This document shows positions 2,012-20,274 of a stretch of 64,000 nt of DNA, piece by piece. Source of the stretch: Methyloterricola oryzae. GTDB lineage: Bacteria > Pseudomonadota > Gammaproteobacteria > Methylococcales > Methylococcaceae. Position 1 is the stretch's first letter, and each line of letters begins with the position of its first letter. The position numbers and the translations under genes were made by a program. Where the stretch lies: the NCBI RefSeq assembly GCF_000934725.1, contig NZ_JYNS01000002.1, positions 372,001 to 436,000 of the forward strand, written 5' to 3'. The notes under the pieces were generated by a model. That model worked only from the letters and a program-made list of their open reading frames with translations, ran no database searches and was not told the DNA's origin.

Positions 2012-5000
2012 TCAGTCCTCCAACTCGTAGGCTTCCACCAGGGTCGCCCGCTCCACGCCTTTCGCGGCGAGCGCCTGCGCGGCCAGGGTCCAGTTGTGCG
2101 CCGTGTCCGCACCCAGGTCCGCGACCGTGGAGAAGTTGCGGCTGTCGACGGCGGCCACGGCAGGTTCCGACACGCTGAGCTTGCGATTGCCCGCAGGGCG
2201 AAGGCGATCGCGGGCGCGCAGGCCCGATTGGGCCGCGGCGCCGGCGGCGGCACCGGCGCGGAACAGGTCCATGCTCAGCGCGCTGATCAGCAGCTCGAAG
2301 CGGAACAACTGGCCCTCCTCCTCGCCGGGGACCAGGTACTTAGTCTCGTAGTCCAGGTTGCCGACGGTCACAGCGTCCGCGGGCAGCGCGTAGTCGTTCA
2401 GGCCCACGGCCACGCCCACGTCGAAGGTCTCGAAGGAGGGCGAAGACAGCTTCTGTTCCTCGCTGAGGTTGAGGTACTGGCCGCGGGCCAGGTGTTCGCG
2501 GGTCGCCTGGCGGCTGGAGGCGGGGATACCGCCGATGTGCACGCTTTCGAGATCGAAGCGGTTGGCGCCGGTAATGGCGGTCTCGCCAAACTTTTCCAGG
2601 CTCAGCCCCAGCGGCGCAATCTTCTGGCTGACCCGCAACTGGCTGGAGGGGTGCGCCAGCACCTTCGCCTCTCCCGGCGTCACAGCGATGGTGGTCAGGG
2701 TCTCGGCGCCGAAGGGCAACTCGGTACTCCAGTTGTCGGCCCGGCTCAACTCCGCTGTCAAGAGGGCCGAGACGCTGGTGGCCTCGGCGGGCAGGGCCGG
2801 TTCCTCTCCCCATTGCTCGTCGAAGGAGGGGCTGAACTCGAAGAACAGGATCTTGAAATGGGCCTTGCCGCTGATGCGCCAGCGCCCGGGGCCGGCCAGG
2901 GTGCCCTCGACACTGACACCCACCAGGGTTTCTCCCATGACCTTGATGGCCATGCCGGCGCGGAAGTCCACCTCGAAGCGGAAGCGCGGCCGGTAGTAGA
3001 TGAGGGAGTCGAAGCCGATGTAGCCTTCTATGGAGACCACCTCGAGATCCACTTTGACCCTTAGCTCTGCGCCGAACTGGATGGTGGCGGAGGTGACGGC
3101 GAAATAGCATTGGAGCGAGATTTCGACGATGCTCGCGATCTTCAGCTTCATGCCGATGCGGTCGAGCCCTGCGGGCAGGCCCGGCGGCAGGTCCTTGAAG
3201 CGCGGGTGGAAGCCGCCCACCGCCACCACGAAGGAGGGCTGGTCGCCGTAGTCGATGAGCAGCAGCAGGGAGCCGGTGAGCTCCAGCACCTGAGCCAGGC
3301 GCGAGTCGCGCAGGCGGGCGAAGAAGCCGAAGCGCTTGGCGTCGAAGTCCAGATAACCGAGAAAATCCACGATGATGCGCACCACGTCGCCGCGCGTGGT
3401 TTCCGGCATGCCAATGCGGACCTGCCCCAGCAGCAGGATCTTGCTAAGGGACACGGGGCCGTCACCGCCCAGGGCGTTGTCCATGGCCAGCACCAGGCCC
3501 AGCTTGATCTCGCCCAGCCGCGGGGTGCCCCAACTGAGGCGGAACATGGGGCCGATGAGGAAAGCGTTGCGCCGGATGATGAAGATCACGCGCAGCCGGT
3601 TGATGATGCGCGGGGCATCCGCCACCGGGTTCTGCGGGAACAGGATGTCGTCGAACACCCCTTGCGGCAACTGGGTCTGCAAGGCTGGCACGTCGGCGCC
3701 GTGGTGCAGGCCGATCAGGCCGCCGATGCCGTCGAAGAAGATGCCGAAGGCGATGTGGAAGCGTGGCAGTTCGGCATAAACCAGCAACAGCAGTGCCCAG
3801 CCGCTGGAGCCGTCCGGCATCTTGGTGGTGAGGATGCCGATGGCTTTGATGCCCCAGGCGGCGAAGCGCAGTTCCAGGGCGCCGGCATATTCGCCGCGCT
3901 CGAAATCGAAGAACAGGTAGCCGCCCCCCTTGACGATCCCGGCATCCAGTACCAGCCCTAAGCCGTTGGGTGGCTTGAAGCCCAAGGCCGCCTCCATGAA
4001 GCCCAGGTTGCCCTGGCGGAAGGCAAGCTGTAACTCGAAGCCGATGCGGTCCACGCTGGCGCGGAAGGCGCCCAGGTTCAGGCCGAAGGCCGTGGCCATT
4101 TCCAGGGCCACGTCATAGCCGGCGCCACCCGGCGCCAGCGCCAGCTCAACGGTGTGGATATTGAGCACGCCGCCCAGGGATTTCTCCACCGGGATGGTGG
4201 CGCGCCCACGGGTGCCGCCGTCGATGCGGATGCCGCCGCGGGTGTCCGCCGTCAGGCCGAAGTCGAAGCCCAGCTTGATCTCCCCCGAGGCCATGGCGCT
4301 CAAGAATCCGTCGCCTTCGCCGGGGCGGATCACCAGCTCGGTTTTTTCCAGCGAGACGCGGAAAGCTGCCCGGTCGGCGAGGATGTCGATCCCCAAGCCT
4401 ATCTGGCCTATATCCAGGCGGGTCTTGTCGGCATCGCCGATGCGGATGGCCGGCGCGCCGGCTGCGCCTTCCTGCCGCAGGCTGAAGCGGCCGAAGCCGG
4501 CGGCGCCGCTGCCTACCTCGAAGCCATGGGGGCTTTCGTCCCAGCCGATGAACATGTCCAGGGCGCTGCCGGCGCCGGCCTCGATCTTCAGGGTGGTCTG
4601 CTCGATCTTGCGCTCGAAGGCGCCGCCGCCGCCCAGGGCCAGGAACAGGCCCGGCCCGCCGTGCTCTGCCGGCACGCCCAGGACCGTGAGGGCCAGCTTG
4701 GGCGTGGTGTCGGCCACCTTGGGCAGGGACACCACCAGGGTAGTTGCTCGGGAGGAGACCAGATCGGCATTGGGCGTGGCCGAGTCCGGGGCCGGGTCCC
4801 AGCCGTAATAAGCGTCCAGCAGCTCGGGGCCGGCGAACTTATCCAGCACCCGTTCCAGGGCCACGGCCACCACCGAGGCCAGGGCGGACACCCGTTCGGC
4901 CAGTTTTTCGCCCGAGCCCGGCGCCGATGCCTCGCCCCGCGCCTGGCGCACCAGCACCGCCGGGTCGAACTCGGTGAGGGCCTCAGGGTCGTCGGCGATG

Positions 5001-5383
5001 AACAGGCTGGTCTTGCCGATGGCGTAGACCACCGGTTCGCGGGTGCGGATCATCTCTGCCGCCAGCAGCTTCCCCAGGAGGTAGGCCACGTCCCAGCCGG
5101 AGACGCTATTGGGGTCCTCGGTGAGCTGTTCGCCCATCTGCACCAGGGCGTCCACCAGGTCCTTGAGGTCGGCGACGGTTTCCTTGAAGCCTTCCTTGTC
5201 AGGATCGAGCCCGTCGGCGAACTGCTTGATCTGGCCACGCTGCGCCTCGGGAACGCTCTCCCCCGGCGCCAGCCCGAGATCGTCGCGCAGGGCTTCGACG
5301 ATGTAGGGGTCGCCCAGGTTTTCCTGCACCCATTCCGCCAGTTCCTTGAACCAATCGCGTACCGTGGTGATGGCGTTGGCCAT
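2012..5383 (-). CDS. Very large beta-rich protein, resembles DUF6603 proteins
   Basis: This 1123-residue protein has no signal peptide. A helical, acidic N-terminal region (about 1-180) is followed by several hundred residues of alternating short hydrophobic and glycine-rich strands, such as GGIRIDGGTRGRATI and GLVLDAGIVKGGGYLFFDF, typical of a long beta-structure. The composition and some motifs remind me of the uncharacterised DUF6603 family, but I could not run a profile search. Its start lies 4 bp after the stop of the PhoD-like gene, so the two are almost certainly co-transcribed. The start ATG at 5383 has GGAGG about ten bases upstream. No enzymatic motif is apparent, and a scaffold or surface-binding role is speculative. 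Confidence 0.75.
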   Translation of the reverse strand: MANAITTVRDWFKELAEWVQENLGDPYIVEALRDDLGLAPGESVPEAQRGQIKQFADGLDPDKEGFKETVADLKDLVDALVQMGEQLTEDPNSVSGWDVAYLLGKLLAAEMIRTREPVVYAIGKTSLFIADDPEALTEFDPAVLVRQARGEASAPGSGEKLAERVSALASVVAVALERVLDKFAGPELLDAYYGWDPAPDSATPNADLVSSRATTLVVSLPKVADTTPKLALTVLGVPAEHGGPGLFLALGGGGAFERKIEQTTLKIEAGAGSALDMFIGWDESPHGFEVGSGAAGFGRFSLRQEGAAGAPAIRIGDADKTRLDIGQIGLGIDILADRAAFRVSLEKTELVIRPGEGDGFLSAMASGEIKLGFDFGLTADTRGGIRIDGGTRGRATIPVEKSLGGVLNIHTVELALAPGGAGYDVALEMATAFGLNLGAFRASVDRIGFELQLAFRQGNLGFMEAALGFKPPNGLGLVLDAGIVKGGGYLFFDFERGEYAGALELRFAAWGIKAIGILTTKMPDGSSGWALLLLVYAELPRFHIAFGIFFDGIGGLIGLHHGADVPALQTQLPQGVFDDILFPQNPVADAPRIINRLRVIFIIRRNAFLIGPMFRLSWGTPRLGEIKLGLVLAMDNALGGDGPVSLSKILLLGQVRIGMPETTRGDVVRIIVDFLGYLDFDAKRFGFFARLRDSRLAQVLELTGSLLLLIDYGDQPSFVVAVGGFHPRFKDLPPGLPAGLDRIGMKLKIASIVEISLQCYFAVTSATIQFGAELRVKVDLEVVSIEGYIGFDSLIYYRPRFRFEVDFRAGMAIKVMGETLVGVSVEGTLAGPGRWRISGKAHFKILFFEFSPSFDEQWGEEPALPAEATSVSALLTAELSRADNWSTELPFGAETLTTIAVTPGEAKVLAHPSSQLRVSQKIAPLGLSLEKFGETAITGANRFDLESVHIGGIPASSRQATREHLARGQYLNLSEEQKLSSPSFETFDVGVAVGLNDYALPADAVTVGNLDYETKYLVPGEEEGQLFRFELLISALSMDLFRAGAAAGAAAQSGLRARDRLRPAGNRKLSVSEPAVAAVDSRNFSTVADLGADTAHNWTLAAQALAAKGVERATLVEAYELED

Positions 5384-5387
5384 GCCC

Positions 5388-7922
5388 TTATCCTCCGCTC
5401 TGCAGGACCGGCGCTGGATCGCCGGTGGCGGTCAGGGGAATGGCATGCACGGTGTTAGGCACGCCGTTGGGCAGGGCTTCCCCCTCCTGGGATAGGAGGG
5501 TGTGCACGACCTGCAGGCTGGGTCCGGAGCCGATTATGGTCACCAGGCCGATGTTGGTGGTGAACACCATTTGACGCAATTGGCGGAAGCGCTGTGTGAG
5601 GGCGGTGCTCTGGTGGCGGGCCGCCACGGCACGATAGGCGGCGACATGGGAGGCGGCGTTAGCCGGCACCAGCTCCTGCGCCGCCGCCAGTTTCGGGCGC
5701 TGGACGTCCGGCGGCAGGCTGGTCTCCGGCCGCTCGTCGCGTACCAGCTTCAGCCGCCAGCGCCAGTCCGGCTGCTTGTCCGGCGGGATGCCGGCGCCGG
5801 CGGGCCAGCCGCGGGTCGAAATGAGGGCGGGAGAACGACGCATCCGAGAGCGCTTGCCGGGCGAGATCTTCGCCCCCGGCGGCAGGGTGATGGGCGCCTT
5901 GGCGTTCCAGGCCAGGCGTTCCGGGGCGATACCGGTCTGATAGATCTGCAGCAGGGCATTGCTCCGCAGGACCGCCTCGACCAGATCGCTGAAGCTGTTG
6001 CGGCTGGCGCTGGAGGTGAGCTGGACGATGCGCGCCGGCGTCGGGCTGATGCCGGTCCAGAAGTCCAGGGTCAGGCTGCAGGCGTAGTGAACGTCGCCCG
6101 ACAGGATGATGGCCTTCCCATGACTGGCCAGGCGCTTCAGCAATTCTTCCCGGGCAGGCTCATTGGCGCCCCAGCTCTCGGCGTCAGCGTCTTCCACTCC
6201 GGTCACCTTGCCGCCGGGCTCACAGGGCTTGTCGCCGCGCCGCTGCAGGTGTTCGATGCCGTATTTGTAGTCGGCCACCATCTCGTAGATGGGGGCCGCG
6301 TATTGCTCCATGATGTGCGGGCCCAGCACCGGAGCCGGCGACACCACGATCAGCAGTTCGCGCCCGTCGGCCAGGGGGCCTGCGGGTACCTGCGCCCCCA
6401 GGGAGTCCCCCAGCAGGCTGGCCGGTGCGATGCCCTGGCCGCGGAAGCCGCGGCGGGTGCGGGTGTCCAGCACGATTACCAGATGGCGGGGCCCGGCCAC
6501 CCGGTAGTGCCACACCACCTGCTTGCCGGCGTCCTCGCCGGCGATGCCGAACAGCACGTTGAGGCGGCTGAGGTTGCTGGTCTCATCCGCCCCGGTGTCC
6601 GCCGGCGCCGCGGTGGGGGGTTGGCCCAGCAAGGCAGCGGTCTCGTCGATGAATTTTTTGTTGGGGCTGTCCGCTTTGGCGAAGGCGTCGGGATCGTTGC
6701 CCCAGCCCTGGAACAGCCCATAGGCCATGCAACCGTTGCGGATGATGTCCTTGCCTAGGGCTGTGCGCAAAACCCGGTTGCGCCAACGCTTGTTGAGGTT
6801 CCAGTCATCGGTGATCTCATGGTCGTCCCAGATCATATAGGTGGCGACGTTGGCCAGCACCCGGGCTACCTTGGAGACGGCGTCGCGCCAGGCAATGACC
6901 CGCTCGCGCTCCTTTTCGATCCCTTCGCCGCGTGCCTTCTTCCAGTTTTCCTGGGGCGTACTGCCGCCCGGATAGCAGGCTTCCCAGTCCATGAGCATGG
7001 CCTTGTGCTCGGGAGCCAGACTGGCGTCAATGGCCGCGAATATCTCCGCACTGGGCGCCAGTTCGCGCCACACGCGCGGGCTCCAGGCGGCCAGGTACAT
7101 CGCGGCGAATTCGCCGAAGGTGATGAGATGGCTGTCCGCGTCCGTGGTGGACATGCGAGCGGCTTCCCGGATCAGCTTGCGGCGGCGATAGGTGGGAAGA
7201 TGGCGGAGATTACCGCGCAGCGCCGCGGTCCAGCTACCGTCTGCGTTGTGCAGGGTGACGAATTCCTCGTAGCCGAGCAGGTCGCTCCCCAAGCGGTTGA
7301 GCATGGGCAGCAGGCAAGCGGGCACGTCGTCGGCGTAAATCTGGTCGCCTGTGAGAAAGAGCTGTTGGGGCCTCTTGTCGGCCATGTTGGCGTAGTCATC
7401 GGCGATCGTGTCGTCCAGCCAGGCCATTGCGTCCGGGCCCTTGCCGTGGGACTTGCGGCAACTGGCGTGGGCGAGGCGCAGCCGATCGATGCTGGCGGGC
7501 GCTGCGACGAAGGAGGGCAGGCGGCCCGTCACATAGCCCAGGGCCAGTTGCGCGGGCCGGCCTTCGGCGGCAGGCCGATCTTCCAGCAGGCCCTCCCCGG
7601 CCAGGTCGCTGCTGCCGAAAGAGCCGCTGAGGGCGATATCGTAGGAATACAGGCCCCCTGGGGTCAGGGGCGGACTGCCGGCAGCCGCGTCCAGCTTGAC
7701 CTGGATGACGCCGACGTAGAGGTGTTCGCCGAAGCGGCGCAGGCTGGTGGCCTGCGAAGATGCGACGGGAGCGCCCGCGCTGGCCGCCATGGCCGTGCCG
7801 GCGTAGAGTTTGAGGGTGACGTCGGTGGCCTCGCTGGTGGCCAGCCAGACGCTGCAGGCGTTCGGTTCGACCCGGCGGACGATGGGTCCGGCCAGCACAC
7901 GGGGAAGGGTCGCGCCGGGCAT
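5388..7922 (-). CDS. PhoD-like metallophosphatase without export signal
   Basis: The 844-residue protein carries the calcineurin-like/PhoD hallmarks. These are LTGDQIYADD (about residues 188-200, metal ligands), YMIWDDHEITDDW (about 362-374) and a late SGDVHYACS (about 608-616), preceded by an N-terminal fibronectin-like segment (VEPNACSVWLAT). PhoD-family enzymes hydrolyse phosphomonoesters or phosphodiesters with a Ca/Fe centre and are normally Tat-exported. Here no Tat or Sec signal is visible, and the protein is some 300 residues longer than classic PhoD, with an extra C-terminal region. It is the first gene of a minus-strand operon with the DUF6603-like protein and the unrecognised protein after it. 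The enzyme class is clear; the substrate and cellular location are not. Confidence 0.85.
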   Translation of the reverse strand: MPGATLPRVLAGPIVRRVEPNACSVWLATSEATDVTLKLYAGTAMAASAGAPVASSQATSLRRFGEHLYVGVIQVKLDAAAGSPPLTPGGLYSYDIALSGSFGSSDLAGEGLLEDRPAAEGRPAQLALGYVTGRLPSFVAAPASIDRLRLAHASCRKSHGKGPDAMAWLDDTIADDYANMADKRPQQLFLTGDQIYADDVPACLLPMLNRLGSDLLGYEEFVTLHNADGSWTAALRGNLRHLPTYRRRKLIREAARMSTTDADSHLITFGEFAAMYLAAWSPRVWRELAPSAEIFAAIDASLAPEHKAMLMDWEACYPGGSTPQENWKKARGEGIEKERERVIAWRDAVSKVARVLANVATYMIWDDHEITDDWNLNKRWRNRVLRTALGKDIIRNGCMAYGLFQGWGNDPDAFAKADSPNKKFIDETAALLGQPPTAAPADTGADETSNLSRLNVLFGIAGEDAGKQVVWHYRVAGPRHLVIVLDTRTRRGFRGQGIAPASLLGDSLGAQVPAGPLADGRELLIVVSPAPVLGPHIMEQYAAPIYEMVADYKYGIEHLQRRGDKPCEPGGKVTGVEDADAESWGANEPAREELLKRLASHGKAIILSGDVHYACSLTLDFWTGISPTPARIVQLTSSASRNSFSDLVEAVLRSNALLQIYQTGIAPERLAWNAKAPITLPPGAKISPGKRSRMRRSPALISTRGWPAGAGIPPDKQPDWRWRLKLVRDERPETSLPPDVQRPKLAAAQELVPANAASHVAAYRAVAARHQSTALTQRFRQLRQMVFTTNIGLVTIIGSGPSLQVVHTLLSQEGEALPNGVPNTVHAIPLTATGDPAPVLQSGG

Positions 7923-10812: not shown

Positions 10813-11957
10813 CGTAGGTTACCTCCCGTGTTGAACTTACGTATCGCGAACTTGAGCCAAAGACGGAATTAGTGCCATGCTTTTTGTTAGTATCCTATTC
10901 CTCCCATCCTGTTCATTAAACTATCAAGGCATAACGTTTTTAAAGGCTATTTAAGCCCTTGAAGGTGGTTTAAGAACCCCTGAGCTTGAAAAGACGCTTT
11001 ATCAATCAGCGTGCTAACTTTAGACCCTTTTTTTTGACCGAGTCTCAAGGAATTCTCCGTATTGGGTGCTGAGAAATATTAGGAGTTTCTCATGTAAAGC
11101 TTACCCACACTATCTGGCTGGCTCGGAGCGCATTTGCCGGATTGCGGAATTTCAGATTCGGTCGAAGCGCCGCCAAGCCATCGCCTGCTATTTCTGAACC
11201 GTCTCATGCCGAAGTCCTGCCCCAGCGACAAAATCGACTTTTGTCAAGGTTGGCTGGATTTACATAGAACTGCTTTGACAGGTATGGGCGAGCTAGGGGA
11301 AGTGTGCTGAATTCGCAACACAAGCGGCGGCATTCTTCTCCTTTCCTTAGCCCCATAGAGAGAAGAAGCGTCGCCTCGGTTGTAATAAGCGCCCGATAGG
11401 GCGGCAGTCCATGAATATTGTTGTTCGTCCATCCCTAATCCTTAGCTTTTGTGAGCTTGGAATTCAGCGCGCTATAAGCGCCTTTGGATCTTTATGCTCT
11501 TAATTACATACGAGCATTACGATACTGCTTCAGGAAGGATGCCTGAGCAGTTTTCGTAGTAAATATACTATAGAAGATTGACGGATCCGAGAGTAACAAC
11601 TTTATTCAAGTCCGCGCAAGAGGGCGGCCTAAAAAAGGCATCTGATTGCGCCGCTGAATCCGGTTTTATGAACAGAAATAAGGATTATATTCATGAGGGG
11701 CCTGCTCTTCCCATATATAGAGACAACATTCAAAGTTGCAATTGCACTGATGATATCAGCCAACTCTTATGCGCCATTTGGAAGATTGTCATCGCTGTTA
11801 ACTTGTGATCCACTAATGTGCCTTGATGCAAACTGGCTTTCGTGACGGGTGAAGTAACTGCATAGGGATTTTTCTTGCTCTGCCGAAGAGTAAGGGTGAT
11901 TGCTTATACCTTGACGTTCGAGTTTGCTGATCAGCCTTATTTTCGCAGGGAGGTTGT
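10813..11957. other. Gene-poor, AT-richer intergenic stretch
   Basis: About 1.1 kb between divergent transcription units is visibly richer in A/T than the flanks, with tracts such as the T8 run at 11026-11033. I see no convincing protein gene. The two short frames here have no ribosome site and unnatural composition. It must contain the promoters for the coiled-coil operon (minus) and for the FecR/autotransporter locus (plus), but no pair of good -35/-10 boxes stands out. TTGACG at 11911-11916 is a possible -35 without a good partner. Confidence 0.55.
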
Positions 11958-12824
11958 GTGCTCGAGTTCAATGTGTCTCCAGAAGAACCGACTGGGCATG
12001 CCAGTGACCGCGCGGCCCATCGAAGTTCGCCTCCAATCGCCTTAGGGCCGGTTCTTTCACGTCTTTTTAGATGCCTGTCCTCCCTGCTTCAGGTGCCCGC
12101 ACGCGTATTCAGTTTGGAACGGCGACAGCCCGAAGCAACGTGCAGGCTTTGCTCAGTTGTTACGCCTGAATCGCTTTTCGTGCGGCTGATAGCACTGTGG
12201 GTCTTGGGAATTCTGGTCACGTTCAGCGCAGGATGCTCCTCGGTCGCTTATCTCCCTGGACAAGGCACCGTGGCGCGGCTGCGTGTAGGAGGGGCCAATG
12301 TGAGTCTGAATGGAGCGCCGGCGCGCGACGGCCAACTCGTGGCAAACGGGGATCGTGTCACGACTGGCAAGGACAGTACGGCTTACGTGGACTTTCTGTC
12401 CGACGGTTATGTTCAACTCGATCAGAATACGGACCCGGTGTTCCAACTGCTTTGGGAGGGTACGCGGTGCCTGATATGGGTCAGGGAGCACTTCCAAGGG
12501 CAGGCTTACGAGGAGCCCAGTTCACAATGCGGTACCCGCATCCGTTCCACGCATGGCGAATGGGAGAACAGCGATGCGCGATTCAACCTGCGCGTGGATT
12601 CCGAGCAGTCTGTTTTGACGGTACTCGAGGGCAGCTTGGAACTGATCCAGCCGCAGCGCATTGCTGTGTCGCAAGGCTATCAGATGATCGTGACCAAGGA
12701 TGGGGTGCAGAGCGTACGCAGGCTATCCGGCCGTGAACTCGATGAGGTCACGCGCTGGCGGGCAGCTTTGCCGCAATCTCCCGTTGGGGCTGCGGCACAA
12801 TGCAGCGGAGCCTGTGCCGATTAG
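11958..12824 (+). CDS. FecR-domain protein, probable lipoprotein
   Basis: A GTG at 11958 with a strong site (GGGAGG four bases upstream) gives 288 residues. A FecR-like beta domain follows a hydrophobic segment: VGGANVSLNGAP, a GDRVTTGKDSTAYVDF stretch and DGYVQLD lie at about residues 112-155. The hydrophobic segment ends in FSAGC with Cys93. Starting instead at the in-frame GTG 12180 would make a perfect 18-residue lipoprotein signal with Cys19, but no ribosome site precedes it. FecR domains are periplasmic and often accompany outer-membrane or signalling proteins. Here the protein heads the autotransporter/CHASE2-TIR locus and is 105 bp upstream of the autotransporter. The fold assignment is fairly good; the exact start and lipidation are unresolved. 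Confidence 0.75.
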   Translation: MLEFNVSPEEPTGHASDRAAHRSSPPIALGPVLSRLFRCLSSLLQVPARVFSLERRQPEATCRLCSVVTPESLFVRLIALWVLGILVTFSAGCSSVAYLPGQGTVARLRVGGANVSLNGAPARDGQLVANGDRVTTGKDSTAYVDFLSDGYVQLDQNTDPVFQLLWEGTRCLIWVREHFQGQAYEEPSSQCGTRIRSTHGEWENSDARFNLRVDSEQSVLTVLEGSLELIQPQRIAVSQGYQMIVTKDGVQSVRRLSGRELDEVTRWRAALPQSPVGAAAQCSGACAD

Positions 12825-12929
12825 AACTTCCATGACCTGAATTGGGAAAGGTCCAGGCGGTCTGGACCAAGGCCAGGGTTTTCGAACTTAAGAACAACAA
12901 CGTTTCAGGATGGCGGGGGCAGAGCAGGA

Positions 12930-15900
12930 ATGAGGAGCATTAGAACCGATCGAGATCGGAAGCCCAGTCTCTTAGCTTTGGGAATGGAGCAAGCTTATTT
13001 ATCAGAGCCCTGCCAGCATCATAAGGAACGGTGCCAGTCGCGTCCGTCTCATCCCCTGCCCCTTTCGAGAACAGCAATACCCACCCTAACAATGTTTTCG
13101 CGCACCGGGTTGCTTTTCACCATTCTGCTGCTCGCGGTCAGGATGGGCATCAGCAGCGCCGCCGCCGCGACGACTTGGCGGGGCCCCAGTGTTTTTCCTG
13201 ACCAGAACGCTTGGAACGATCCAGACAACTGGAACAACGGAATTCCCCAAGCAGAGACTGATCGAACCGAAATCGGCACAGACGAGGGGCAATTCAATTT
13301 CCCGCTCATCGATGGAGGAGGCGACCCGCCTGAAGCGTTTGCAGGTCAATTGCTCGTGCTTGGGGACTCAGGCGCTCTCCAAGTTAGCGGCGGCACCCTA
13401 AGCGCGGGGAGTGTGATGGCGGTAGGCCAGGGATCGATTTCTCACAGCGGCGGCATCGTCAGCGTCGATGACACGTTGAGCCTTGAGGGCCCATCTGCCG
13501 AGTATTCCTTGTCTGGCGAAGGGACCCTCTCAGTGGGGAGGCTGAGTATTTCGTCCGGACGAATGGAGCAGAGCGGCGGCAGTGTGACGGCCGCGAACGT
13601 GACGATCGACCAGGGCAGTGTTGTTCAGAGCGGCGGCCTCTTCAGCGTCGGGAACACCATGAGCCTGACGGGCCCGTCTCTGGGGTTTGGCGCCAAGTAT
13701 ACGCTGGGTGCCAATGGAACTCTCAGCGTTCCAGACCTGAATATCAGGAATGGCATTTTCACCCAAAATGGCGGCAGCTTTTCCGGCACAATGACGCTCG
13801 GTTTGCTCGGGCCCCAGGATGATCGCGCCGGCGGAACATTGATTTTTAACGGGGGTACTTTCAATGGCACTCTCGTCAACAACAATAATGCGGTCTTCGG
13901 AAACACAGGGGCAAGCGACCCGCTCGTATTTAGTGCGCCGATCAGTGGGAACGGCCGCAACTCCATTCTGGGTAATGTGAGCTTCAGCGGTCAAAATACC
14001 TTCTCTGGAATCAACGATCTGCAAGGCGGCACCTTGAGCGTGTCCTCCGATGCAAACCTCGGACAAGCCAACTCCGGTCTGAATTTCAACAACGGCATTC
14101 TGCGGATTACAGGTCAGTCATTTACGAATTTGGGCCAGCATCCGGTCACTTGGCAAGCCGGGGGAAGCTTCGATATTGCCGATGCCGCCAATGCGTTCAC
14201 GGTTTCGCAGGACCTGGGGGTTCTGCCAGAGGGTTGTGAGGATGCGACCTGCAACGACGATTTGCCCGATGTGGCGCTCACCGGGCTCACCAAACTGGGA
14301 CCGGGCACCCTGGTTCTGACCGGGCGTAACACGTATCAGGGGGGCACCTCCATTGTTGAGGGCAAGTTGCAGGGTAATTCCGATAGCCTGCAAGGCGACA
14401 TCCGTGTCGCGCAGGACACCCGCCTCATCTTCGATCAGGTGAATACGGGAAGCTATGGGGGCACGATCTCGGGAGCCGGCGGCCTGATCAAGCAGGGCGA
14501 AGGCACACTCATTTTGTCGGGCTCGAACGCACACACGGGCGGCACGACCCTGGCCGCCGGGACCCTGAGTGTCGCGTCGGATGCCAGCCTGGGCGGCGCG
14601 GCCAGTCCCCTGAATTTCGATGGCGGTGTGCTGCAGGTGACCGGGACGACCTTTAACGCAACGCCGCGCACCGTCAATTGGGGTGCCGGGGGAGGGGGCT
14701 TCGACATTGCTGATGCCACCCACACCTTCACTGTTTCCCAGGTTCTCAGCGGCAGCGGCGGACTTTCCAAACTGGGCGCCGGCACGCTCGCGCTCACAGG
14801 ACAAAATACCTACAGCGGCGCCACCAACCTGAATGAGGGAACGCTGAGTGCAAGGTCCGACGCCAATCTCGGCGCGGCTTCGGCGCCTCTTAACTTCAAC
14901 GGAGGCACCCTGCGCGTCGAAGGCACGAGCTTTACCTCCACCGCCCGCCCGATCAACTGGGGCGCTGCGGGCGGGGCGTTTGACATCGTCGATGCGGCCA
15001 ACACGTTCACCGTTTCCCAGGTCCTCAGCGGCAGCGGCGGCCTGACCAAACTGGGTGACGGCACGCTGGTTCTGACAGGCGCCAATACCTTCACTGGCCG
15101 CACCGAGGTGCTGGGCGGCATCCTGCAGGGCAATAGCACCATCCTGCAAGGCGACGTCAGCACCTCGCAGGATACGCAGCTGGTCTTCGACGAGGGGAGC
15201 GCCGACGGTACGTATGCCGGTACGGTGACAGGATCGGGCAGCCTGACCAAGGCGGGTGAGGGCACGCTCATTCTGTCGGGGTCGAACACCCATACCGGTG
15301 GCACAATCCTGACCGGCGGCACCTTGAGCGTGGCGTCGGATGACAGCCTGGGCGATCCGGCAAGTGCGCTGAATTTCGACGGCGGGACGCTTCGGATTAC
15401 CGGGACTTCCTTCAATTCAACGCTGCGCACGATCAACTGGGGTGAGGGCGGTGGCGGTTTCGACATCGCCAATGCCGCCCACACCTTTACCCTCTCCCAA
15501 TCCCTGAATGGTAGCGGCGGCCTTACCAAACTCGGCGGCGGCACCCTCATCCTCAACGGCAACAACACCTACACGGGACTGACCGTGGTGCAGGAGGGCA
15601 ATCTGGAAGTGGGCGACGCCGCCCACGGCCGTACCGCCGAGCAGGACGGCGCCTCCATCCTCGGCCCGGTGCGGGTCGATCCGACCGGCATCCTCAGCGG
15701 GCACGGCACCATCATCGGCAGCGTCAACAACTTTGGCACGATTGCGCCCGGCGGGTCGATCGGCACCCTCACCGTCAATGGCGATGTCGCCTTCAACCGT
15801 GGGTCGACGTTCCAGGTGGAGATCAGTCCCACGCGGGCTAGCCGTTTGAACGCGACAGGCCAGGCGTCGCTGGGCAATGCCGCTGTCAACGTGGTCGCCA

Positions 15901-17024
15901 ATGCGGGAACCTATGCCCCGCGCAGCTACACCATCCTGCAAGCGGCCGGTGGCGTCGCGGGCAAGTTTGGCAAGCTGAGCATTCCCAATGCGCTCTCGAT
16001 ACCCTCGCTGCGCCTGATGACCCCTTCGCTCAACTACTTCGCTGATCGCGTCGACTTGAAGCTCGAGTCCGTTTCCAGCCCGGTATCCGCACCGGAGCAC
16101 GTGACGCGGCAGTTGATCACGGGCCTCTTGCGCATGGTCGGGGGCCGGTTGGATGCGCCCTTGGGCGAGAACTGCCCGGTCAATCGCCTGGGCTTCTGGG
16201 CGCGCGGAATCGGGATGATCTCCACGGCGGACGGCGACGGATTCTCGCCCGGCTATGATGCCGGAACCGCGGGCTCCGTCATGGGCTTCGACCTGCAGGT
16301 CAGCGAGCGCGTGTCCGTTGGCATTGCCGGTTTCGCCGGGCACACCGACGTCTCGCTGCAGCAGGCCGCGCGCAGCAACGGCAGCGCCGATAGCGCCATG
16401 GTCAGCTTGTATGGCGCCTTCACCTCAGGCGCCTGGCAATTCAAGAGCGTGCTGGCCTACGACAATGACACCTACACGGCACAGCGCTCGATCGCCGCCG
16501 GCGATGCCCGGCAGGCCTACAGCAAGACCTACGGCAACCGCGTCAACGACTACACCGAACTGAGCTACAGCTTCCGATCAGGCGACGTCGCGATACAGCC
16601 CATCGTCGGCGTGCAGTTGGGCTGGATGCGGCAGAACCCCCTCACAGAATCGGGCACCAATGCCGATGGCCAGAACCTCTCCGTCGATGGCCGCACCTTG
16701 TATACCTTCGACACCCTGGTGGGCGTAAGAAGCCGATACGAGCGCTCTCTGATCGAGGGGCTTAAGGCGCAGTTCGAGCTGCGGGCCGTTTACGACCACG
16801 ATTTCGGCACCTTGCAGGATGCGGTGGGTGCGCGCCGGTCCGACAACCAACCTCAGTTGCTCAGCACGGCAGACCGTCCCAATCAGCGCGACGCGGGCAT
16901 CGTCGGCGCCAGCCTGGCCCTCCTGACAGCCAACACGCTCAACTTCTACCTGGACTACAACGGCGAAATTCGCGGCGGTCAGCAGGCCCATTTCATCAGC
17001 GCCGGCGTCCGCTACGCGTGGTGA
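12930..17024 (+). CDS. Autotransporter with PATR-type beta-helix repeats
   Basis: This is a 1364-residue type V secretion protein. A Sec signal begins at Met55 (ATG at 13092; MFSRTGLLFTILLLAV, cleaved after about SSAAAA). The 54 upstream residues may be an extended signal region or a start misplacement, and neither ATG has a good ribosome site. The passenger is a Gly/Ser/Thr-rich beta-helix with six motifs of the form LxKxGxGTLxLxG, the autotransporter-associated beta-strand (PATR) signature. It is followed by an APGGSIGTLTVNG junction and, from about residue 1087 (FWARGIGM), a C-terminal beta-barrel ending in the classical aromatic residue (AGVRYAW). It would display its passenger on the cell surface. 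Its last codons overlap the alternative starts of the FecR-TPR gene, implying translational coupling. Confidence 0.93.
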   Translation: MRSIRTDRDRKPSLLALGMEQAYLSEPCQHHKERCQSRPSHPLPLSRTAIPTLTMFSRTGLLFTILLLAVRMGISSAAAATTWRGPSVFPDQNAWNDPDNWNNGIPQAETDRTEIGTDEGQFNFPLIDGGGDPPEAFAGQLLVLGDSGALQVSGGTLSAGSVMAVGQGSISHSGGIVSVDDTLSLEGPSAEYSLSGEGTLSVGRLSISSGRMEQSGGSVTAANVTIDQGSVVQSGGLFSVGNTMSLTGPSLGFGAKYTLGANGTLSVPDLNIRNGIFTQNGGSFSGTMTLGLLGPQDDRAGGTLIFNGGTFNGTLVNNNNAVFGNTGASDPLVFSAPISGNGRNSILGNVSFSGQNTFSGINDLQGGTLSVSSDANLGQANSGLNFNNGILRITGQSFTNLGQHPVTWQAGGSFDIADAANAFTVSQDLGVLPEGCEDATCNDDLPDVALTGLTKLGPGTLVLTGRNTYQGGTSIVEGKLQGNSDSLQGDIRVAQDTRLIFDQVNTGSYGGTISGAGGLIKQGEGTLILSGSNAHTGGTTLAAGTLSVASDASLGGAASPLNFDGGVLQVTGTTFNATPRTVNWGAGGGGFDIADATHTFTVSQVLSGSGGLSKLGAGTLALTGQNTYSGATNLNEGTLSARSDANLGAASAPLNFNGGTLRVEGTSFTSTARPINWGAAGGAFDIVDAANTFTVSQVLSGSGGLTKLGDGTLVLTGANTFTGRTEVLGGILQGNSTILQGDVSTSQDTQLVFDEGSADGTYAGTVTGSGSLTKAGEGTLILSGSNTHTGGTILTGGTLSVASDDSLGDPASALNFDGGTLRITGTSFNSTLRTINWGEGGGGFDIANAAHTFTLSQSLNGSGGLTKLGGGTLILNGNNTYTGLTVVQEGNLEVGDAAHGRTAEQDGASILGPVRVDPTGILSGHGTIIGSVNNFGTIAPGGSIGTLTVNGDVAFNRGSTFQVEISPTRASRLNATGQASLGNAAVNVVANAGTYAPRSYTILQAAGGVAGKFGKLSIPNALSIPSLRLMTPSLNYFADRVDLKLESVSSPVSAPEHVTRQLITGLLRMVGGRLDAPLGENCPVNRLGFWARGIGMISTADGDGFSPGYDAGTAGSVMGFDLQVSERVSVGIAGFAGHTDVSLQQAARSNGSADSAMVSLYGAFTSGAWQFKSVLAYDNDTYTAQRSIAAGDARQAYSKTYGNRVNDYTELSYSFRSGDVAIQPIVGVQLGWMRQNPLTESGTNADGQNLSVDGRTLYTFDTLVGVRSRYERSLIEGLKAQFELRAVYDHDFGTLQDAVGARRSDNQPQLLSTADRPNQRDAGIVGASLALLTANTLNFYLDYNGEIRGGQQAHFISAGVRYAW
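14286..15600 (+). repeat. Tandem 252-253-codon duplication inside autotransporter passenger
   Basis: Six PATR motifs group as two copies of a three-motif superunit. Motif 1 (LTKLGPGTL, 14286) pairs with motif 4 (15042), 756 bp apart. Motif 3 (14763) pairs with motif 6 (15522), 759 bp apart. Copies share unit-specific signatures such as LQGNS followed by LQGD and QDT, and SGSNxHTGGT. This indicates a segmental duplication with a one-codon indel rather than independent repeats. Confidence 0.75.
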
Positions 17025-17062
17025 ACCGCCAGGTCATGCCGGTGGGCGGTATCAGGCTCGGA

Positions 17063-18649
17063 ATGAAACGGCGCGCGTTCGCCGCAGCGGTTCTCGGCTT
17101 GATGGCCCTGCGAGAGCCTCGGGCCGAACCCTCGCAGATCCAGGTCATCGAGGTGCGGGTGGCCGGCAGCCGCACGGGCGAGCCGGTGGAAGTCACCCTG
17201 GTCATGCCCGAACTGGAACAGCCGGTGCGGCGTCCCATCGCCGAGCAGGATTTCCTGCCGCTGGGAGCCGAAATGATCGTCCCCACGCGCACCGTGTTTC
17301 GTCTGCAATCACCCAATGGCACCGAGTGCACCCTCTCGCCCGGAGCGCGCTACCGGGTGGATTCCACCAGCGCGCGGGGTGAGATGCACTCGGTCCTGGG
17401 CGGGACGGCGCGTTTCCACGTCAGCAAGTTGCTGGATTTCTTCAATGTGGAGTTCAAGGGCTTCGTGGGCTTGGTGCGCGGGACCGAGTTCACCTTGAAA
17501 GTCGATCCCGGGCGAGACGTCGAGGCGGACCTCAAGGAAGGGCGCTTGCGCATCGGGCAGACAGGCAAGGTGCGCATCAACGAAGGCGCGCGCGAGAGCG
17601 AGGTGCTCGCGATCAAGATCCTGGAGCCCGGCATCGCCTCGCAAGCAAGCTATGCCTTGCAGCAGGAATCGGTGCTGCAGAGCTTTGCCACGATTCAGGA
17701 AGCGGAAGACCACTACCGCGCTCAGCTGGAAAGCGCGCTGGCGGGTGGAGATTTCGATCTGATCGAGGCCGCCAGGAACGATCTGGGTTCCATCTTCATC
17801 TCCTTGGGGCGCCCGCAATCGGCTGCGCCTCAGTTCAGCGAGGGTGCCGCCGCGGCGCAGGCGCGCAATGACAAGCCCTGGGAGGCACGCATGCTCAACA
17901 ACCTGGGCACCGCCCGCTACCAGTTGCGCGACTTCCGCGGCGCGATCCAGGCGCTGCAGCGCGCCTTGAGCATCAATCTGGAACTCTACCCGGTAGGCAT
18001 TCAGCGCCGCATCGCGCACAACTACAACAACCTGGGACTGGCCTACCGCGGTTTGGGAGACATGGCCCGCAGCATCGAGTACTTCGAGAAGGCGATCAAG
18101 ACCAACCAACTGCTGCCGGCGGATGACAGGAATCGCCAGGCGGCGGCCGGCAATTACGAAAACCTGGGCGAAACCTATCTGAAGCGCGGCGACAAGGAAC
18201 GCGGCTTCGAATACCTGGAGCGCGCCCTGAAAATCCGCAAGGCCCTGCCGCCCGCCGGCCGTCACCCGGATTTGGGCGTCAGCTACAACCGTCTGGGGAT
18301 CGCTTACGAACAGAGCGGGGATCTGGTCAAGGCCGAGCAGTACCACACTCAGGCGCTCACCCTCCGTCGCCAGCTGTACCCGGATGGACGCCACCCCACA
18401 GTGGCCGAGAGCCATTTCCACCTGGGCCGCGTCCTGTGCCGGCTGGGTAAATGCAAGCTGGGCATCAAGCAGCAGGAAGAGGCTTTGGCCCTGGCGCTGC
18501 GTTTATATCCCTCGGGAATCGACCGCACCATTGCCATCGCCTGCCGCAGTCTGGCCGAGGCCTGGCGGAAGGAAGGCGATCAGGGCAAGGCGGCCGACTA
18601 CCAGAAGCGGGCGGAGCAGGTGGAGGCGCGCCTGCAAATCGCCCCATGA
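17063..18649 (+). CDS. Secreted FecR-domain and TPR protein
   Basis: With ATG at 17063 the protein has 528 residues and a signal peptide MKRRAFAAAVLGLMAL cleaved near EPRAEP. Earlier GTG codons (17018, 17021) overlap the autotransporter stop but add a non-signal extension. Residues about 75-190 form a FecR-like domain with the motif GLVRGTEFTLKVDPG followed by EGRLRIGQTG. Residues about 215-525 form six or seven tetratricopeptide repeats of the kinesin-light-chain type, for example NNLGTARYQLRDFRGAIQAL and NYNNLGLAYRGLGDMARSIE. A periplasmic scaffold linking the surface protein to the membrane sensor is plausible. Its stop overlaps the start of the CHASE2-TIR gene (ATGA), so the two products are translationally coupled. 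Confidence 0.88.
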   Translation: MKRRAFAAAVLGLMALREPRAEPSQIQVIEVRVAGSRTGEPVEVTLVMPELEQPVRRPIAEQDFLPLGAEMIVPTRTVFRLQSPNGTECTLSPGARYRVDSTSARGEMHSVLGGTARFHVSKLLDFFNVEFKGFVGLVRGTEFTLKVDPGRDVEADLKEGRLRIGQTGKVRINEGARESEVLAIKILEPGIASQASYALQQESVLQSFATIQEAEDHYRAQLESALAGGDFDLIEAARNDLGSIFISLGRPQSAAPQFSEGAAAAQARNDKPWEARMLNNLGTARYQLRDFRGAIQALQRALSINLELYPVGIQRRIAHNYNNLGLAYRGLGDMARSIEYFEKAIKTNQLLPADDRNRQAAAGNYENLGETYLKRGDKERGFEYLERALKIRKALPPAGRHPDLGVSYNRLGIAYEQSGDLVKAEQYHTQALTLRRQLYPDGRHPTVAESHFHLGRVLCRLGKCKLGIKQQEEALALALRLYPSGIDRTIAIACRSLAEAWRKEGDQGKAADYQKRAEQVEARLQIAP

Positions 18650-20274
18650 TAGCCAAGCCGCGTCTGGCCTGGTATGTGCTCGCCTATTTGGGCCTGATGG
18701 CCGCGATCGCTCTTCTGACCCCCTGGCGTCATGTGGACTGGTACGTGGCCGGAAAGCTGTCTCCGCCGCCGCCCCTGGCCAGCAATATCGTCTTCCTCGG
18801 CCTCACGTCGCCGGCGGCCATTGCCGAGAGCGAACTGGCCAACTACCGGGAGCGCTTGTCGTCCCTGCTGCGCCTGATCGCGTCCGGCCAGTACGGGCGG
18901 CCGATGGTGCTGCTGCTCGACATCCGCATCCGCTCCTCCCAGACTGGCCTGGAGCAATTAACGCAGGCCATCAAGGCAGTGCAGGACGGCGGAACCAAGG
19001 TCTACGCCGCCGTCGACCCCTTCCAGCCCGGCACCACCGAATTCAACCCGGACTACATGGTACTGAACGAACATGCGCAGTCGCTTTACCAGGACGTGCT
19101 GGACGGTTCCGGCCATACCCTCATGCAATGGCTGTGGCAAACCGCCAAGTACGATGCCTATCTGGATATCGGCGACGGTGTATCCATCCCCGCTGTCGCC
19201 ATCAAGATTTCCGAGGACTTCTTCCAGTACCCCGTCGTGTCCTCGCAGCGCTCCATCGTGATCCAGGTCGGGCCGCGCGAGGACTTCCTGCAGCAGGCCT
19301 ATCGTTTCGAGGCCGGTACTCTTTCGCGGTTGGCGGACACATCGGGCAAGCCAGCCAAGCCCGACCTGAACGGAAAGCTGCTGATCGTCGGAAACCCCCA
19401 AGAAAAGCCTCCGGCCGAGTTTCCCGAGGAACTCAAGCGTCCCGGTCCGGAGTTGCTGGCCTGGGCCTTGTCAGCCCGCATTTCGCGCTCGACCGCCGAA
19501 CTCAAGGTCGAACCCTGGCTGCTGGTGGCCTACACGCTGGGTTTGTCCGGTCTGGCCTGTTTTCTGGCCAGGTTCCTGTATCTGCGCTCGCCGGCCTTGC
19601 GCAGCCGCTATCCCAGCCTGGCGCCCCTGGCCGGCGGCGCGCTCGCGCTGTTGGGACTGATTTTTGTCGTCTGGTTTCTGCGCTCGCTTAATTTCATTTA
19701 TCCAATGGTCACTCTGGTCGCGGCAGGGATTGTCGCGGCCAGCGTGATGACCGCGCTTTACCTCAAGCGGAGGCTGCAATGGGCCCTGTTCCACGCCGAG
19801 CGGATCGAGTCGACGGGCGATTACGATGTGTTCATCAGTTATTCGCGCACCGAGCCGGAACATATCGCCTGGGTGGCCGCCAACGTGGTCGAGCCCCTGC
19901 GGACCCAAGCCCGGAAGCCCGACGGTTCGCCATTGAAGGTATTCTTCGATAAGGAAAGCATCCGCCTCGGCGACGACTGGCCGACCCGGGTGGCGCACGA
20001 TGTGAACAGCAGTCGAGTGTTCGTTCCGATCTATTCCAGGGACTATTTTTCCAAGCCGGTGTGCAAGTACGAGATGGAGCAGGCGCTGAAGATGTATGTA
20101 ATGCTGAAAAACCTCATCGTGCCGGTGATGCGCTCGCAAGAGCCCATCGCCATACCAAACGCCTATGACGGTATCAACTACATCGACGCCATCCGCGAGC
20201 CGGAGTTCGCGAAGAGGCTGGTGGAGCGCGTGTCGCAGGCAATTGCCGAGGTCGAACTGCGAGCCGTCGTTTAA
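18646..20274 (+). CDS. Membrane protein with CHASE2-like sensor and cytoplasmic TIR domain
   Basis: The ATG at 18646 overlaps the preceding stop and gives 542 residues. A membrane helix (about 8-26) leads into a long periplasmic CHASE2-like domain (about 27-290, with NIVFLGLTSP and MVLLLDIRI strands). Three helices follow (about 292-312, 326-346 and 351-374), the arrangement typical of CHASE2 receptors. The C-terminus, from Asp392, is a TIR domain: DYDVFISYS (392-400), VFFDKESIRLGDDW around Asp435, SRVFVPIYS, and CKYEME with Glu476 where NAD-cleaving TIR domains place their catalytic Glu. CHASE2 normally feeds cyclases or kinases, so a TIR output is unusual. NADase or signal-nucleotide production triggered by an envelope signal is my inference. 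It is the last gene of the locus. Confidence 0.85.
   Translation: MIAKPRLAWYVLAYLGLMAAIALLTPWRHVDWYVAGKLSPPPPLASNIVFLGLTSPAAIAESELANYRERLSSLLRLIASGQYGRPMVLLLDIRIRSSQTGLEQLTQAIKAVQDGGTKVYAAVDPFQPGTTEFNPDYMVLNEHAQSLYQDVLDGSGHTLMQWLWQTAKYDAYLDIGDGVSIPAVAIKISEDFFQYPVVSSQRSIVIQVGPREDFLQQAYRFEAGTLSRLADTSGKPAKPDLNGKLLIVGNPQEKPPAEFPEELKRPGPELLAWALSARISRSTAELKVEPWLLVAYTLGLSGLACFLARFLYLRSPALRSRYPSLAPLAGGALALLGLIFVVWFLRSLNFIYPMVTLVAAGIVAASVMTALYLKRRLQWALFHAERIESTGDYDVFISYSRTEPEHIAWVAANVVEPLRTQARKPDGSPLKVFFDKESIRLGDDWPTRVAHDVNSSRVFVPIYSRDYFSKPVCKYEMEQALKMYVMLKNLIVPVMRSQEPIAIPNAYDGINYIDAIREPEFAKRLVERVSQAIAEVELRAVV

Follow-up and report, generated by a model that had tools for sequence, protein, structure and literature searches.

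Can a bacterium place a TIR domain behind a sensor that spans its envelope? TIR domains are an enzyme type used in bacterial and animal immunity, and most of the bacterial TIR proteins that have been studied sense something intracellular. The question arises from four genes of Methyloterricola oryzae (genome 4.9 Mb) in a window of 64,000 nucleotides (G000:C2:372001–436000), the whole stretch of DNA that we analysed. They span positions 11958–20274 (Table 1), and an earlier note on this DNA had described them as genes for a FecR protein, a large autotransporter, a FecR-TPR protein and a CHASE2-TM-TIR protein that could carry a signal from the cell surface to the cytoplasm. Our reading, held with somewhat better than even confidence, is a transenvelope relay that resembles the FecR/CHASE2 module but has a TIR output; genes 3 and 4 would make it up, gene 2 probably belongs to it as well, and gene 1 perhaps does.

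Table 1. Features of the four-gene locus (positions within the window).
Feature	Position	Strand	Description and basis
Gene 1	11958–12824	+	FecR-domain lipoprotein; FecR ~12351–12638; lipobox Cys codon 12234–12236
Gene 2	12930–17024	+	PATR autotransporter; barrel domain ~16194–16961
Gene 3	17018–18649	+	Secreted FecR-TPR protein; FecR ~17300–17545; TPR ~17765–18577
Gene 4	18646–20274	+	CHASE2-like / 4-TM / TIR protein, 542 aa
Gene 4, first transmembrane helix	18664–18720	+	Hydropathy
Gene 4, extracytoplasmic CHASE2-like domain	18727–19512	+	hhalign against CHASE2 alignments; ~260 residues
Gene 4, helices 2–4	19513–19764	+	Three-helix block as in CHASE2 proteins; hydropathy
Gene 4, TIR domain	19828–20208	+	Pfam; Glu codon 20071–20073

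The order, strand and open frames reported for the four genes all held, and the genes are real. The last three were said to overlap: this is robust for genes 3 and 4, which share an ATGA at 18646–18649, whereas genes 2 and 3 overlap only if gene 3 starts at GTG 17018. ATG 17063 is the likelier start, as it gives a signal peptide directly, and it leaves a 38-nt gap after gene 2; the gap between genes 1 and 2 is 105 nt. The annotated start of gene 1 puts about 74 residues ahead of the signal sequence, and GTG 12180 is more likely, while in gene 2 the signal peptide lies nearer ATG 13092 (signal peptides were judged by hydropathy and motif only). Promoter and terminator scans at the locus returned no more than in shuffled sequence.

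Downstream lies argA which, often with phosphoesterase, Nudix and HAD genes, is syntenic in relatives. In regions that were fetched from 13 relatives (short in two cases), we found none of the window genes upstream of argA, and the locus therefore lies in accessory DNA. We rejected the downstream phosphoesterase gene (21862) as a member of the locus, since it follows argA in 8 of the 13 relatives without the locus. The 1.1 kb upstream of gene 1 (10813–11957) has no clear gene and a G+C content of 0.46, against 0.63 for the window. Elsewhere in the window, a DUF6603 protein (1,123 aa) is encoded beside a PhoD-like phosphatase (844 aa) on the minus strand (2012–7922).

The TIR domain of gene 4 is clear (Pfam TIR_2, 59 bits, E = 6e-16). 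The codon at 20071–20073 encodes Glu (residue 476 counted from the Met at 18646) at the NADase catalytic position, invariant in 11 aligned TIR domains; in the alignment with the NAD hydrolase AbTIR (8g83), it falls on the Glu of that protein's NYELDGL, the catalytic residue of the enzyme. The domain is predicted to cleave NAD+. Some TIR domains work through assembly alone, and the domain of gene 4 could be a scaffold or protein-interaction module without enzymatic activity; with the catalytic Glu conserved, we consider this quite improbable. Two further TIR genes of the same genome, L002 (G000:C2:362391) and L003 (C22:25578), encode the TIR domain before several helices, the reverse of gene 4; the distance from one of them to the downstream four-gene locus is about 20 kb.

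Hydropathy places the helices of gene 4 at residues 8–26, 291–309, 328–346 and 356–374, followed by the TIR domain. This layout (one helix, an outside domain, three helices, an output) is also that of the CHASE2 cyclases P0005 and P0006 of the same genome, again by hydropathy. The earlier designation CHASE2-TM-TIR is thus right in its topology and its TIR domain; Pfam finds no CHASE2 domain in gene 4, and the likeness comes from remote profile matches. Against three CHASE2 alignments, hhalign gave E values of about 1.7e-4, 0.0033 and 0.004 (range 1.4e-4 to 4e-3), all covering one stretch of gene 4 in register, namely the C-terminal part of CHASE2 plus the helices. The outside domain keeps the LxGKxxxVG and PGxExxA motifs and is without GxWPWPR. 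When multi-helix ORFs were scored together, gene 4 reached 39.8 and the best unrelated ORF 26.6; the ORFs compared with gene 4 numbered 46 and included a fragment of it. The outside domain alone, stripped of the helices, gave no in-register CHASE2 match (its shuffles reached E values of 0.1–0.7), and a single-sequence structure prediction of gene 4 (pLDDT 41) was too poor for a structure search.

These results suggest a diverged outside domain that we call CHASE2-like rather than CHASE2. It could instead be an unrelated sensor fold that resembles CHASE2 through helix composition and topology, as the sub-threshold match, the missing GxWPWPR and the silence of the domain without its helices would have it. 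However, three alignments match the same stretch in register, decoys score far lower, and the neighbouring gene encodes a FecR-TPR protein as at CHASE2 genes, and we regard an unrelated fold as rather unlikely.

Of the domains named for the other genes, PATR was matched by Pfam, as TIR was in gene 4, while FecR stayed under the cut-off. In gene 3, described earlier as FecR-TPR, the TPR part is clear (TPR_12, E = 7e-34) and the FecR part is weak, with 20.3 bits in Pfam against a cut-off of 24 and an E value of 0.0012 with the profile of the relatives; its TPR part also matches that of the FecR-TPR-barrel family (A6; E = 3e-7), although TPR likeness is common. Gene 1 reached 14.6 bits against the same cut-off, and the FecR domain proposed for it was nevertheless recovered with the profile of FecR-TPR-barrel relatives (HMM E = 1.9e-7) and by hhalign to the N-terminus of the FecR-TPR-beta-barrel family (E = 1.3e-10). 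By these profile matches, the FecR domain of gene 1 is assigned to a family whose members sit near CHASE2 genes. Gene 2 is the large autotransporter that had been predicted, with PATR (176 bits, E = 1e-52) and an autotransporter barrel (128 bits, E = 1e-36). This barrel is unrelated to the FecR-TPR-barrels of the relatives, with which it gave no alignment.

What surrounds CHASE2 proteins elsewhere in the order can be seen in the FecR proteins of 11 relatives. Two proteins were scanned with Pfam (one on contig C7 of the M. oryzae genome and one in G218, from another search) and are FecR-TPR-beta-barrel proteins; the FecR proteins of the 11 relatives align with these two along their length. A CHASE2 gene lies within a few kb of the FecR-TPR-barrel gene in 8 of the 11 relatives and immediately adjacent in 5, and the three without a CHASE2 gene in the fetched region include one whose FecR gene is at a contig start. 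In M. oryzae itself, a CHASE2-cyclase gene on C24 lies next to a FecR-TPR gene that is truncated where the contig stops. The gene for the FecR-TPR-barrel protein on C7 (L019, G000:C7:90000–104000; 1,160 aa, weak MtrB/PioB barrel match) and that for a CHASE2-cyclase are divergent and flank a 216-aa gene. DUF928 and CHAT-TPR proteins recur near CHASE2 genes (L099, L105 and other CHASE2 loci).

Twelve of 20 CHASE2 proteins scanned carry a cyclase output, and GGDEF, SpoIIE, Ser/Thr kinase and histidine kinase outputs occur once each; a TIR output was found in none of the 20. CHASE2 is known to swap outputs. Our locus has the four-helix layout, an adjacent FecR protein (clear in gene 1, weak in gene 3) and TPR beside FecR, and has TIR where the module has its familiar cyclase, GGDEF, kinase or SpoIIE. 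By analogy, the locus looks like a FecR/CHASE2-type module that is split into separate genes and has TIR as its output, in one genome.

Related systems have been described in other bacteria. In Sinorhizobium meliloti, the outer-membrane barrel protein NsrA acts with the CHASE2 adenylate cyclases CyaD1, CyaD2 and CyaK, and signalling has been shown (PMC7529298, PMC13001267); by analogy, this appears to be a tested relay of the same kind as the FecR/CHASE2 module. The two share an outer-membrane barrel for perception and CHASE2 inner-membrane proteins leading to a cytoplasmic output, and the FecR-TPR-barrel proteins that adjoin CHASE2 cyclases in this order have an NsrA-like length (~1,100–1,200 aa) with the barrel in the second half, a likeness of length and barrel position. 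Unlike the NsrA system, our locus has a TIR output, a PATR autotransporter barrel, separate FecR and TPR genes and a very diverged CHASE2-like domain. CHASE2-cyclase clusters with FecR outer-membrane and TPR proteins occur in the Campylobacterota (PMC9239204), with a cyclase and a phosphodiesterase in the place of TIR and without an autotransporter. The BiofilmReg operon of Burkholderia pairs a FecR protein with a CHASE2-histidine kinase (PMC5192318); it resembles our locus in that a periplasmic FecR-domain protein adjoins a protein with a CHASE2 or, in our case, CHASE2-like domain, three helices and an output, and differs in its histidine kinase and response regulator, in having LysM in place of TPR and in lacking an autotransporter. 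As for FecI-FecR-FecA signalling, no sigma factor or TonB receptor was found among the four genes or in the scanned flanks, and the FecR genes of this genome that adjoin TonB-receptor-like genes lie elsewhere. No description of CHASE2, FecR and TIR together was found in the literature searched.

The surface-to-cytoplasm reading of the earlier note thus gains support by analogy, since FecR, TPR and beta-barrel genes lie near CHASE2-output genes in the order and in this genome and NsrA–CHASE2 signalling is known. The four genes as one unit fared less well. G022, a draft genome of the same family that is 72% complete, has homologs of genes 1 and 2 on separate contigs, neither of which carries the other three genes, and their neighbours are unrelated. 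The homolog of gene 1 is stand-alone, has a lipobox, is 46% identical and sits beside respiratory-chain-like genes; that of gene 2 is 48% identical across the C-terminal 605 residues and lies on a short contig. Because the two occur singly on different contigs, the claim of a four-gene system is weakened. Apart from one close homolog, the search with gene 1 in 151 relatives returned FecR proteins of about 1,100–1,400 aa, and no homologs were found in viral contigs.

Gene 4 had no full-length homolog in 151 relatives, 369 genomes of the class or 398 of the phylum (draws that partly overlap), none in plasmids or phages, and no useful relative in pattern scans with genes 4 and 3 across 84,980 genomes; the hypothesis therefore comes from one genome. 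TIR matches were found in 88 of the 369 class genomes, and the TIR survey took in about 37 places with frames of 450–780 aa among the matches listed, plus the search loci. Among ~70 TIR ORFs read, there was no second case of a CHASE2-like outside domain with four helices and a C-terminal TIR domain. Matches of gene 4 in G390 and G491 were rejected as chance similarity of hydrophobic stretches; of the proteins read there, one is a membrane protein with many helices and the other is kinase-like/exonuclease-like. A 535-aa protein in G497 (L158, contig C7, 2619–4226, minus strand) has a C-terminal TIR domain and a CHASE2/cyclase-profile match upstream, and is possibly a cyclase-TIR fusion; it was rejected as a CHASE2-TIR protein, the profile match probably coming from the cyclase part and no helix being seen.

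The relay might consist of genes 3 and 4 alone. In that case gene 2, as an autotransporter of adhesin type, and gene 1, as a FecR lipoprotein, would each act independently and just happen to lie upstream; this is a serious contender to which we give somewhat less than an even chance. The sole sure overlap is that of genes 3 and 4, 105 nt separate genes 1 and 2, the G022 homologs of these two lie apart among unrelated neighbours, and known FecR and CHASE2 operons can be free of a barrel (PMC5192318). Yet the FecR domain of gene 1 comes from a family that partners CHASE2, the module of the relatives includes a barrel, and the gap between genes 2 and 3 is at most 38 nt. Genes 3 and 4 are the firm core of the proposed unit, and gene 1 is possibly an extra FecR unit.

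A different role altogether would be phage defence or abortive infection, in which envelope damage or phage adsorption leads to killing by NAD depletion. Bacterial TIR domains that have been studied are often NADases in defence (PMC12847820), and gene 4 shares the TIR domain and catalytic glutamate with such proteins (Thoeris ThsB, SpbK, TIR-APAZ and AbTIR-like); the locus is also accessory, at a variable position by the core gene argA, and gene 4 is an orphan, as in arms races. Against this, the flanks have no defence genes, no homologs of gene 4 were found in phages or plasmids, and the modules of this kind that have a different output are used in signalling rather than in defence. PADLOC gave just generic, low-scoring TIR and TPR matches (ThcB4, 24 bits against a cut-off of 220), and Thoeris and other known TIR anti-phage systems gave neither a system match nor a partner gene in the flanks. 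In the libraries and literature searched, we found no TIR protein known from defence that has either a FecR partner or a 4-TM sensor of the CHASE2-like type. The defence role that the earlier note had proposed found no support here; it is possible, and we think it unlikely.

In the relay that we favour, a surface event would be sensed by the outer-membrane barrel, which here is the autotransporter and in the relatives is part of the FecR-TPR protein. From the barrel, the periplasmic FecR-TPR protein would pass the signal on to gene 4, whose CHASE2-like domain would alter helix packing such that the cytoplasmic TIR domains associate. Associated TIR domains would then cleave NAD+, making a messenger or depleting NAD. 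We infer the CHASE2 identity of the outside domain, the joint action of the genes, contact between their proteins and the signal itself. In its fullest form, the autotransporter and FecR/TPR proteins would together switch a CHASE2-TIR receptor and turn an outside event into NAD signalling or death, in a layout like that of a Toll-like receptor; this version we put forward as doubtful.

A relay that appears to be of this kind is already known; the TIR output would be new to the FecR/CHASE2 module, and was found once. If true, the module accepts an immune-type output, and genes 3 and 4 are a concrete pair for testing this. If the TIR domain does sit behind a transenvelope sensor, bacteria could answer events outside the cell with NAD chemistry.
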